Source: Deuterostichococcus epilithicus (lineage: Eukaryota; Chlorophyta; Trebouxiophyceae; Prasiolales; Stichococcaceae). From it: a DNA stretch of 64,000 bases. The first letter of the stretch is position 1, and the number at the start of each line of letters is the position of its first letter. Where the stretch lies: positions 1,178,001-1,242,000 of the forward strand of contig JAVTLE010000001.1 in NCBI GenBank assembly GCA_033439295.1, in the 5' to 3' direction. Shown in pieces: positions 6,490 through 46,718 of this stretch. The translations under genes were made by a program, and so were the position numbers. Below the pieces are notes generated by a model. That model had not been told where the DNA came from and did not search any database. It saw only the letters and a program-made list of their open reading frames with translations.

Positions 6490-9400
6490 TCAGCAAGAAC
6501 GTCGGGTGGAGATCAGCAGGGGGGCAAGGCGCACGTGGTTGAAGTTGCGGGCCAGCTCCGGGACGTGCGGCCCGTTCATGATCTGCAGCACCGTCACGTC
6601 GGGCGTGAAGGGCAGGTCTGGCAGCAGCTTGGGCGTCAGCAGGAAGCACTGCGGGGTGCCCTCGCCTGCGGCACAGTGACAACAACAACCAGTCTCAGAG
6701 ATGGGATGAGCGCCCGCGCAGCGGGTTGGCGTGCTGTGGCGAGCCTCGGCTGCGTCGCGCCGACTGCAGCAGGCAGCGCAGCCCTGAACGGGGGTGCCGG
6801 CAGGGCGGGCCTCCGCCGGCTTTCGAAAGCAGCCTGAGTTGCGCCAGGCAGCACCGCTCGGCTGCCGACAAAGCGGGCCGACCAGGGCGCAGGCATGCTT
6901 GCAATGAGAGCAGTTGAGGCAGATGTAGAGCAGACGACAGGCGCACCTGTTGCGGCGGACACGAGCTCCTTGAACACCTTGCGCTCATTGTGGGGGTCCA
7001 TGCCCTGCGGCGCACCAACAAGACAGTCATCAGAGGGGATCAAGTAGAAAGATTCTCAGGGCGCCAGAGCGCATCAGTCTGAAGCTGGCTGGTGTGGGGC
7101 CGGACGCCAGGACGCGAGCGATCTCAGGGCCGCTCGAGAGACAAAAGCCGGCACGCTCCGCCCGCGCAGCCGCCAAACACCCCTGCCCGAAAGCACAAGG
7201 TCCCAGCGAGCGGCGAGCGGCGAACGGACGCGACGCGCCTGGTTGATCTCGTCGACGACGCGGAAGGGGCAGGCGGCGACGTCCTGCAGCGCCACCAGGT
7301 ACAGGATGGTGGACACCGATCGCTCGCCGCCCGACTGCCGCTGCGCGTTCAGCACCTGCAGCTCCTCCGCCTCCCGGAACTTCACCCTGCATGGTTGATG
7401 ATTGACGTTAATGATTGATAACTAAATAATAAATCGCGCAGCTGTCCGGGCCTCAGGACCTTGCGCATTGAATCAGCGAATCGTAAAAGCTCCGTGCTTC
7501 TGGGTCGGCGCCTGCAGCTGCTGCGCCTCTTGAGGCCTATGCCCTGCACAGATGCGCGAGTCAGCACATGGGTGGGAATGATGTCTGTTGTGGGACTCAT
7601 GCTCTCCACTGAAAGAGGTTTGCACCTGCAGCTGTCCCTCATGCATGCCAGACTTCTGGGCCCTGCATCCCGGGACGGGCTTTCCAGAACCCCCGGGGGG
7701 CAGCGACGCACTTGATGTTGATGGCGAAGCGGTCGTAGTCGTCCTCCTGGTCGTGCAGCGCCACCTCCCCAGCGCACCCGATCTTGGCGAAAGCGCGCGC
7801 AAAGGTCTTGTTCACCTGTTTCACGATCTTGCGCAGCTCCGGCAGCCAGCGCTCCTGCGCAGGGGAGTTGCAGCGCGGGTCGGGGTGCAGTTCGAGGAGG
7901 CTTACCACTGGCGGAGCTTTGACAGTCGTCAGCACGGTCACATCTCACAGTCGTGAAGCCGTGTGGAGCAGCAGCTGGGGTTGCGCGCTGCTGCAAGCAC
8001 TGGGATGCTACCGGCGCGCCGCACGGCCAAAGGGGTTTCTGTGAGGCTGGGCCCAACTGCAGCAGTCGCTCTCCCACGTGGCAAGGCAGGAGGGAGGCAG
8101 TGACCGGCCCGCGCGATGGACGATGCTCCCCGCCGACCGACTGCCTGTGGCTTACGACGGCGCCGGCAGCGGGATCTCAACCCCCAAGCAAGGGGGTCCT
8201 CGACGACCCTGCTCCGGAGAAGCAGCCAAACAGCGCGGCTGCTGCCGCGGAGACTGACGCCAGGGCAGGCAGGTCGTCGGCGCACCTCCAGCTGCTCCAG
8301 CTCGGCGCGGCGCGTCTCCATGAGCTCCGACTCGTCCCGCAGCCGCCCCTCCAGGTCCGCAATCTTCTCCGCCCGCTCCCTGCAATGGATAGACAGTCAT
8401 GGTCTGCTTCCCAGTGACCTGATCAGCGTCGGTGCTGGAGGAGCGCGGCTGCAGTTATGGGTCAGCTCGTGGTCGGACGCCAGGTCTTGTGGTATGCGAC
8501 CGTTGCTCCTGCCGCTCGGTCTCCGTGTGTGGGAGAAGTTTATACGGGCCTGTTCCTTGGCCGGCAGCGGGGGTGCTTGCATCGCTGCTCCACCCTGCTC
8601 AGGGGCTGCAAAACGACAGGAAACCCTCGGTGTCCAGCGCTGGGACGACCACCCTGTGTCTGCAGCAGGTGGCTCGGCGCGCACATGGGGAACCGAAGCC
8701 CCCCCGCGGCAGCTGACCTTCGAATGGAGGCCAGCCCTGTGCCACACGCCCTACGCCGCTTGAGCCGTCAGGATGCAAACACACGCCGCGGCAGAGAGAA
8801 GGAGATGTTTTTATTATGAATTTGTCCCCGCACTTGTACTCCTGCATGACGCGCGGGTTGGAGCACACGATCTCGTTGGCCTGGCCCTCCAGCTCCGATA
8901 TGGACGCCGCGATTTCCTCCGAGGTGCTGCCGTACTCCTCAAGGCCCGCAAACTCCCGCTTGAGCGCCGTCGACATCTCCCCCGTCTTCTCCTCCGCCAT
9001 CGCCTTCCTGCGCCTGTGGCGGGATGATGCGAAACAAGGTTGGGGTCTTGAGGATGCGTTGTCAACATCTCGCCAGCCTTCTCCTCCGCAATTACCTCCC
9101 TGTGCCTGCCGGGCGCGCCACGAGAAGGAGGTGCAAGCAGCTTGCAGACAGGCTGAGCGGGAGTCATGGTGGAGGAGATGCGTTGTCCTGAGTAACCCCA
9201 CTGCGACAGGAAGCTTCTGGCAGACGGGGCAAAGTGTGCTGGGGTGGCCTGCATTCGACCGACCATGCCATGCGATAGATGTGGTGCCGCATTCGGGGCT
9301 CGGGCAGGGAACGCGCGACTCACGCAAGTGTGGCCCGCTCATCCTCAAACAGCCCCTCCGCCTGCCGCACCAGCCGCGTGTACCGCGTGATCTCCGTCTC

Positions 9401-45700: not shown

Positions 45701-46718
45701 TTGCCGATTGCCAAGCTGCATCTCCTACTTCGGTATCATATGCGCTGAACTCTCCTGGACATCTTGGGCAGTGCCAGGCGATTGCCTCGCTGTCGGTGGC
45801 GGAGGTGTTCATGCTGGTGGCAGCGCAGCGTATACATCGGCGCAACCGCACCGCGCTCCAGGTGAACACTGCATGCATACTTGTTCTGCTTTTTCCAAAG
45901 TGTGATCCTGGCCATTTGGACGCGCTTCCACAGGCAGGCATTGTGACTTTCAGACGTAGAGCCAGCTCTCATGAGACAGGAAGCCTCCGGAGCTTGATGA
46001 TGAAGACTGACGGTCTTTCAAGTGCGGGACGTCATCCTCCAGGCGGTGTGGGAGGAGTACAACCAGCTGCGGCAGCTGCGGGGCTGGCCTCACTCTCAAG
46101 ACAAGACAAAAAGGTTTGATGCATGAGGCTCCTTGAGACAGAGACCCTCCGAATTCGCAGGACGTCACTTTCGAGGCGGTGTGGGAGGAGTACGACCGGC
46201 TGCGGCAGCTGCGGGGCCACGCGGACCATTACTCGCGGCCTGTTGCCGCGCGCGCCTTCGAGACGCTGCTCTCATGCCAACTCCTGCTGCACGCGGACCC
46301 CAGGCGAGCACATCCTGCTGGCTGGTCTGCTGCGCTTTTGCACGCCGGCAGCACTGACCGCCGGCCATCGCTCCATCAAACATGCACAGGCACGCCGAAG
46401 CATGCGCAGCTGAATCGTGGCCCAGCGGACATCTGCCACTCGCTCGGCTGCGTGCAGCGTCATGTTCATACGTGCGATGCATCATTGCCGCATTGCAGTT
46501 GCCGCAGCGAGAGCGAGAACAAAAGGCTCAAACCGTGCTTCACCCGCCGCAGGGCGGAGAGTAAGGGCGGCATGCGGGAGTACCAGGCGGTGGAGGTGCA
46601 GGTGCAGCAGAAGGAGGTGGAGCTGGGCATGCGGGCGCACCCCAACCTGCCAAATGTACTGACAGACTGGCTGCATAAGGAAGCGGTGCAGGGCGACGCC
46701 GTGGTGCTGGATGAGTAG
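42719..46718 (+). CDS. ORC4: Origin recognition complex subunit 4
   Basis: ORC4 is an AAA+ subunit of the complex that marks replication origins. The ATG at 42719 opens a long basic, then Ala/Gly-rich N-terminus (to about 43497) that is much longer than usual; part of 42860-43000 may be an unrecognised intron. Then come the exon from about 43681 (HDSLLKTLQETAERLGQ, Walker A LLLVGPAGCGKTL), about 43997-44230 (LGVVRLSGLLHTDERAAFRE, FALREDF, ENIAFLRAIARELR), about 44517-44630 (VVVFVLKDFDKF, VFYNILDTMHG), about 44935-45268 (LVGTSQRQDVMDLLEKRIRS, RFSHRRILL), about 45471-45602, about 45777-45862 (SLSVAEVFMLVAAQRIHRR), 46161-46280 (VWEEYDRLRQLRG, YSRPVAARAFETLL) and about 46498-46718 (MREYQAVEVQV, LTDWL). 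Walker B, normally LDEFD, reads LKDFD. Two introns carry copies of following exons (44848, 46029). Confidence 0.92.
44848..44980 (+). repeat. Duplicated exon segment in ORC4 (first)
   Basis: The segment 44848-44879 matches exon segment 44948-44980 (encoding TSQRQDVMDL) with few mismatches; both contain CAGGACGTCATGGACCT. The period is about 100 bp and the upstream copy is in the intron, followed by the telomere-like string TAACCCTAAT. Confidence 0.8.
46029..46220 (+). repeat. Duplicated exon segment in ORC4 (second)
   Basis: The segment 46029-46088 encodes a 20-codon stretch with VWEEYNQLRQLRGW; the functional exon from 46161 encodes VWEEYDRLRQLRGH. Fifteen of 20 residues are the same. The first copy keeps an open frame but has no CAG acceptor in matching phase. 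The period is 132 bp. Confidence 0.85.

Follow-up and report, generated by a model that had tools for sequence, protein, structure and literature searches.

To our knowledge, the lengthening of introns in compact genomes is poorly documented, and a stretch of 64,000 nucleotides from the green alga Deuterostichococcus epilithicus raises the question of how it may come about. This stretch, hereafter the window, comprises positions 1,178,001 to 1,242,000 of contig 1 (JAVTLE010000001.1) of assembly GCA_033439295.1, which totals 46.8 Mb in 21 contigs. A preliminary description of its sequence reported that in four genes, named SMC5, RUVBL2, RECQL and ORC4, segments of exon edges recur as decayed copies in the neighboring intron. 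Are these repeats real, are they peculiar to four genes, and by which process were they left? The exon-edge copies are confirmed as real, and they are not confined to the four genes of the window: roughly one intron in 20 carries a decayed copy of the adjoining exon edge.

Exon-edge copies across a 254-kb sample

The sample consisted of the window and nineteen 10-kb stretches, 254 kb in total from 16 contigs, with 555 predicted introns. Gene models were obtained with a simple hidden Markov gene finder self-trained on the sampled sequence, and all exons and introns mentioned below are predictions in which single edges may be wrong. After training, the splice consensus read CAG/GTGCG for donors and GCAG/G for acceptors (the slash marks the junction), of which the starting matrices had favored CAG/GTnnG and CAG/G beforehand, the learned part being the C at position +4 of the donor and the G at position -4 of the acceptor; predicted introns and exons had mean lengths of about 246 and 121 bp, respectively. 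Two slightly different decodings of the gene models exist, as a final update of the parameters followed the last round of training. In the edge test, 60 bp of each exon edge plus 8 bp of intron were compared with the intron of that edge, the null being the same intron compared with edges from other loci, and no complexity filter was used. For the curated set, a DUST filter dropped two matches, giving 32 copies in 30 introns, and four more matches in four introns, repetitive or at an odd offset, were removed by hand, giving 28 copies in 26 introns. A BLAST self-comparison was accompanied by an annotation-free gapped scan for near repeats, added because at least one evident duplicate within an intron (L009:4019) had escaped BLAST.

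At scores of at least 14, a copy was present for 23 of the 473 acceptor edges and for 10 of the 461 donor edges, where 1.1 would be expected in either group, and the 33 direct copies among 934 edges have no inverted counterpart (0/473 and 0/461). An earlier count over 224 kb, at scores of at least 15, had likewise given 22/443 acceptor and 9/440 donor edges (0.8 and 0.4 expected), with inverted copies at 1/443 and 2/440 (0.8 and 0.6 expected). In the same 224 kb, exon sequence more than 80 bp from an edge yielded 0 of 264 copies at scores of at least 14, with 2.1 expected, so that no excess is seen for exon interiors. The annotation-free scan returned 75 near direct and 18 near inverted pairs, 10 of the latter intergenic, and its displaced controls returned 8 pairs at a displacement of 1000 bp and 2 at 2500 bp. 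Exon and intron together are touched by 36 of the direct pairs as opposed to 3 of the inverted ones; the remaining direct pairs are exon-exon (17), intergenic (11), intron-intron (10) or exon-intergenic (1). The preliminary description had proposed a comparison of such counts with random expectation, and over the 254 kb the counts exceed it. By the strict count, 26 of the 555 introns carry a copy; the excess in the edge test amounts to about 31 to 40 of the 934 edges.

The 28 curated copies lie at offsets of 70-270 bp, mostly 88-183 (25 of 28 below 184), and in 23 of them the homology reaches to within 5 bp of the exon edge. Several homologies cross the splice junction when intron bases are included in the query; that 10 of 19 acceptor-side homologies start at exon base 1 is uninformative, as the query itself began there. 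Introns bearing copies have a median length of 343 bp, compared with 210 bp overall, and of 214.5 bp once the offset is subtracted (P = 0.0095 against a length-biased null). Some introns hold more than one copy, as in RUVBL2 and in stretch L014, where one exon start was copied at offsets of 161 and 321. Mismatches by codon position number 69/429, 65/431 and 94/429 (0.161, 0.151 and 0.219), a pattern which appears close to that of a neutral copy combined with silent change in the exon. Stop codons occur in 6 of the 28 translated copies and frame-breaking gaps in many, and the offsets modulo 3 (10, 10 and 8) show no frame preference, as expected if the copy stays out of the mRNA. The AG or GT dinucleotide is kept at the strictly aligned position in 9 of 28 copies, a count that rises when small shifts are allowed by eye, and a selective destruction of splice sites in the copies is accordingly not claimed. 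Changes from exon to copy have no single dominant type, which does not fit a one-directional hypermutation of the copies. Likewise, an origin from spliced RNA finds no similarity to build on, the flank of the copy scoring a mean of 5.54 against the other exon and 5.88 in the null (25 cases).

Proposed tandem duplication across splice junctions and its alternatives

The direct orientation, the short range and the anchoring at the junction speak for a unit that spans the splice site and was duplicated in tandem, and we therefore hypothesize that the copies are probably the remains of local tandem duplications across existing splice junctions, by which introns were enlarged. A duplication of this kind would produce two like splice sites and a surplus piece of exon; were the outer pair of sites used, the protein would remain unchanged and the intron would become longer by one unit, while the surplus exon edge would drift until its frame, and in many cases its splice dinucleotide, was lost. 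Repeated duplication would leave several copies per intron in some cases. The duplications may arise in the repair of staggered breaks or nicks, by fill-in and end joining and sometimes with filler, and selection would retain for the most part those with an extra piece that splicing can remove. Junction-spanning units would thus be kept because their surplus edge is spliceable, exon-internal duplications altering the protein.

In SMC5b, L012:900 and L003:7140, the homology continues across the splice site and into intron sequence (an anchored extension of at least 12 in 3/25, with 0.0 expected), and the intron part of the unit is also recovered in ORC4b and L008:4821 (71% over 164 bp), which makes about five clear cases overall. 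Flank similarity is above chance for the set, with a Stouffer value of 3.25 for the 32 copies and about 2.7, computed by hand, for the 28 kept; a separate test gave P = 0.03.

Several results weigh against this reading. For most copies, no alignment of the intron part of the unit is possible, and when 25 copies were set against simulations of neutral tandem duplication with score and length matched, their flank similarity stood at a mean percentile of 0.15 (indel factor 0.2) or 0.17 (indel factor 0.35) instead of 0.5, in a test which is imperfect, as it gives a z of -0.4 for L008:4821 though BLAST aligns its unit, and which thus misses some true units. An unmatched simulation gives a still larger shortfall. 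This poor flank homology involves either filler, later intron turnover or a copying that stopped at the exon edge. Duplicates lying wholly within introns are also few: they account for the 10 annotation-free pairs given above, of which 4 have offsets below 40, and for a single one of 24 in the BLAST comparison, where about eight were expected from a hand estimate based on detection rates. Duplicates decaying on both sides in introns would soon become invisible. Young copies, finally, are rare, with only 4 of 32 at a score of at least 30, where half would be expected at a constant rate (P about 8e-6), an expectation that assumes divergence uniform from 0 to 0.6; these 32 copies include two set aside elsewhere (L014:9770 and L004:3895).

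The closest competitor of whole-unit duplication is a duplication limited to the exon edge, in which repair copied the edge with a few bases of the splice signal and the spacer is new, unrelated filler. It would explain why most spacers cannot be aligned when the exon part can, and why matched whole-unit simulations give more flank similarity than observed; we nevertheless regard it as unlikely, since the flanks taken together are more similar than by chance, and clearly so in about five cases, and since a boundary at the exon edge also arises when the two intron parts are free to drift and one of the exons is held. A capture of neighboring DNA during break repair, by strand annealing or templated insertion by polymerase theta as in vertebrate repair-mediated duplications, fits the local donors and short lengths, but predicts inverted copies, none of which is found at the 934 edges at scores of at least 14, and donors in exon interiors, which show no excess (0/264); such an origin is improbable. 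The resemblance may also be asked of composition: with a GC content of about 62% in the window and some matches of low complexity, several of which were dropped, shared GC-rich codon usage could generate similarity, and single weak sites with scores near 14 may be chance matches. For the set as a whole chance is refuted, the mismatched-edge and inverted controls drawn from the same sequences being at or near expectation, and its probability as a general explanation is practically negligible.

Two further alternatives assign the copies or their introns another role. That the copies are functional, as decoy or alternative splice sites or as mutually exclusive exons, agrees with the open frame and the splice dinucleotide (AG or GT in 9/28) kept by some of them, but is very improbable given the slight coding constraint, the stops, the frame-breaking gaps and the lack of a frame preference in the offsets; judged from these features, coding use appears unlikely. 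A creation of introns by tandem duplication of an exonic AGGT segment, or by mobile introns (introners), could appeal to the local splice consensus, which resembles the protosplice site required by the former model. However, the similarity of donor and acceptor junctions within 412 introns equals that of random pairs (13 versus 11.3 at scores of at least 8, 1 versus 0.1 at 12 or more, and 0 at 13 or more, the single case being GC-rich), and each of 3 copy-bearing introns, out of 26, that were searched against the genome proved single-copy except for its own exon edge, in a search that skips very common words. Both routes to new introns are thus extremely improbable. Accordingly, where the preliminary description had let one local duplication mechanism create or enlarge introns or shift splice sites, it is the enlargement that is supported: the excess restricted to direct and local copies, the anchoring of 23 of 28 at the edge and the extra length of about one offset support a recurrent process beyond the four genes which enlarges introns, and the 412 introns give no sign of their creation.

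Age of the copies and relation to known systems

The scarcity of young copies suggests a past episode of duplication, with most copies looking old. Given a steady rate of duplication, loss of copies cannot explain it, because numbers would then only fall with age. Assembly collapse of near-identical repeats, or the calling of young copies as exons, could mimic such an episode; annotation alone is, however, argued against by the annotation-free scan, in which only four genic rows have at least 93% identity and an offset of at least 60 (L010:429, L014:2127, L018:1759 and window:43264). A more far-reaching version, which we put forward as a doubtful proposal, is that a limited episode duplicated exon edges with their splice signals at thousands of junctions, was a leading route of intron growth and has since nearly stopped, and that the edge was often copied without the adjoining intron, which would indicate a mechanism linked directly to the splice junction.

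If the rate in the sample holds, extrapolation from 254 kb to 46.8 Mb would place some thousands of such scars in the genome. Each would represent a local clock of neutral decay, because protein selection pins one of the two copies, and the rate and timing of intron growth would thereby be measurable inside one genome. The low number of young copies would, in addition, allow related species to be used for testing whether the duplication rate changed in the past. All of the evidence comes from this one genome, and no special status with regard to other intron-rich genomes is claimed.

Small tandem duplications in rice are reportedly the subject of work by Vaughn and Bennetzen from 2014. Tandem duplication is described as an accepted route of intron gain (PMC3443670; PMC2891723, the latter with cases from Drosophila), and in the potato RdRp gene a tandem duplication across an intron-exon boundary is reported to have made a new intron (Ma, Lan and Niu 2016, PMC4974935). 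As in that gene, where the splice signals are said to be inherited from the parental intron and exon, the duplications proposed here cross an acceptor junction; unlike the single gene and new intron described there, it is the old intron that grows here, in some thirty cases within 254 kb, at both kinds of junction and mostly long ago. An interaction of the duplication with splice sites is likewise shared with the intron gains outlined in PMC2891723, whereas the signature of the AGGT model as presented there, in which an exonic AGGT is duplicated and the new intron equals the unit in length, is absent from the 412 introns.

With respect to the mutational step, fill-in at staggered breaks followed by end joining is reported to generate small direct duplications in mouse cells, in work on Pol alpha-primase/CST whose introduction mentions suspected fill-in duplications in humans and plants (PMC8355091). 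The direct orientation and local range agree with our copies, and this may be a route to such units; the work cited, as far as it bears on this point, concerns a mutation mechanism with overhangs of about 43 bp, in contrast to a layer of decayed splice-junction copies. Repair-mediated duplication by capture of proximal DNA in vertebrates, reported with filler of 1-68 nt and a median proximal length of 147 bp (Pace et al. 2009, PMC2671141), similarly gives local copies, sometimes with filler, that include splice sites and partial exons. As set out in that study, however, copies up to 50 bp apart were removed, one exon copy has the opposite orientation and 4 partial exon or intron donors occur among 824, whereas the present copies are direct and anchored at exon edges. 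Among the matches listed from the open-licence literature, no title or abstract opening reports decayed exon-edge copies in introns across a genome; the scale within one genome, the growth of introns in place of their gain and an apparent peak of age seem to be new.

The sites in the window and other features

All eight functional edges and nine copies listed in the preliminary description are present in the window at the positions assigned to them, all as direct repeats (Table 1). Seven of the eight edges are significant in the edge test against the other-locus null: for SMC5a, SMC5b, SMC5c, RUVBL2a, ORC4a and ORC4b, none of the 2893-3002 null draws per edge equaled the observed score (P about 3e-4), and RUVBL2b, with P = 0.003, is the weakest of the tested set. 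The RECQL edge scored 5 (P = 0.89) under the second gene model, because this model split the intron and called the copy a mini-exon, which we take to be a gene-model error, judging from known RECQ proteins. With the first model (intron 39221-39497) it scores 25, a level of 18 or more being reached in 0 of 5316 null draws, and the pair is also recovered by the annotation-free scan. The predominance of upstream copies noted in the preliminary description is seen in the window, with 7 of 8 edges on the acceptor side, and becomes uncertain in the larger sample, where the excess is 22 acceptor versus 9 donor copies at scores of at least 14 but 22 versus 18 at 12 or more; a strong acceptor bias is for this reason not claimed.

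The RUVBL2 protein predicted without the copies aligns to the RuvB-like 2 structure 5oaf, presumably the human protein, over residues 8-465 of 480 (7.6e-212), and both junctions are free of gaps, which do occur elsewhere in the alignment. Pfam matches back the identification of ORC4, of an SMC protein and of a helicase of RecQ type; the more specific names SMC5 and RECQL are those of the preliminary description.

Table 1. Functional exon edges and their intronic copies, in window coordinates.
Feature	Position	Strand	Remarks
SMC5 exon start, functional acceptor edge	8964..9013	-	exon 8834-9013; 79% over 53 bp, offset 92; P about 3e-4
SMC5 decayed copy of exon start	9056..9108	-	in intron 9014-9323; cag preceding the exon retained in copy
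SMC5 exon start with 32 bp of upstream intron	10612..10667	-	exon 10508-10635; offset 88, score 28.5; homology continues through the acceptor into the intron
SMC5 copy of 10612..10667	10700..10758	-	in intron 10636-10867; almost entire unit aligns; flank z 4.0
SMC5 exon end with donor site	12577..12601	-	exon 12583-12780; offset 166, score 17.5; P about 3e-4
SMC5 downstream copy of exon end and donor	12411..12435	-	in intron 12327-12582
RUVBL2 exon start	25869..25896	-	exon 25768-25896; junction gap-free against 5oaf
RUVBL2 decayed copy 1 of 25869..25896	26056..26097	-	in intron 25897-26446; seen by alignment only, no null
RUVBL2 decayed copy 2 of 25869..25896	26134..26162	-	score 15.5, P about 3e-4
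RUVBL2 exon start	26512..26546	-	exon 26447-26546
RUVBL2 decayed copy of 26512..26546	26606..26645	-	in intron 26547-26856; 73% over 40 bp; acceptor AG reads GG; P 0.003
RECQL exon start region	39155..39208	-	exon 39109-39220
RECQL copy	39264..39324	-	in intron 39221-39497; score 25; alignment (without null) spans almost the entire 109-bp unit
ORC4 exon start region	44948..44978	+	exon from 44935
ORC4 copy	44846..44877	+	in intron 44641-44934; offset 102, 90%
ORC4 exon start plus the final 4 bp of intron	46157..46217	+	exon from 46161
ORC4 copy, best preserved in the window	46024..46084	+	89% over 61 bp; GCGG replaces acceptor GCAG; alignment reaches back to about 45966; flank z 2.5
Further SMC5 candidate, absent from the preliminary description	7505..7529	-	copy of exon positions 14-38 in intron 7387-7711; score 15.0; weaker, may be chance

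Other repeats were met in the sample. In L009, positions 4019-4181 hold a tandem duplication with an offset of 83 and 80 bp of homology (86-88% identical) inside a predicted 838-bp intron, an event of the same type as that proposed for the exon edges, away from a splice site. In L020 (C5:2000001-2010000), direct repeats at 8294-8926 form a satellite-like array with offsets of 39-222 bp and 87-97% identity, which is apparently younger than most exon-edge copies. Positions 1956-2171 and 9750-9965 of L013 (C14:500001-510000) share the same pair of 29-bp repeats, 7794 bp apart, and may be the ends of a long-terminal-repeat (LTR)-type element or a long duplication. Strong local inverted repeats in the window, at 2804-2846 with a partner about 121 bp downstream and at 49189-49219 (scores of 35.5 and 21, respectively), are possible hairpins or small inverted-repeat elements.

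The 211-kb contig C21, which carries psaB and rbcL, probably represents the plastid genome; among solved structures, several of the top matches to psaB are presumably green-algal. Beside psaB, at C21 139151-142539, a match to the psaA/psaB family lies in two pieces with internal stops, which suggests an intron in plastid psaA. Finally, about 33 GCA triplets occupy positions 52553-52652 of the window, at the end of the predicted gene 47602-52658.

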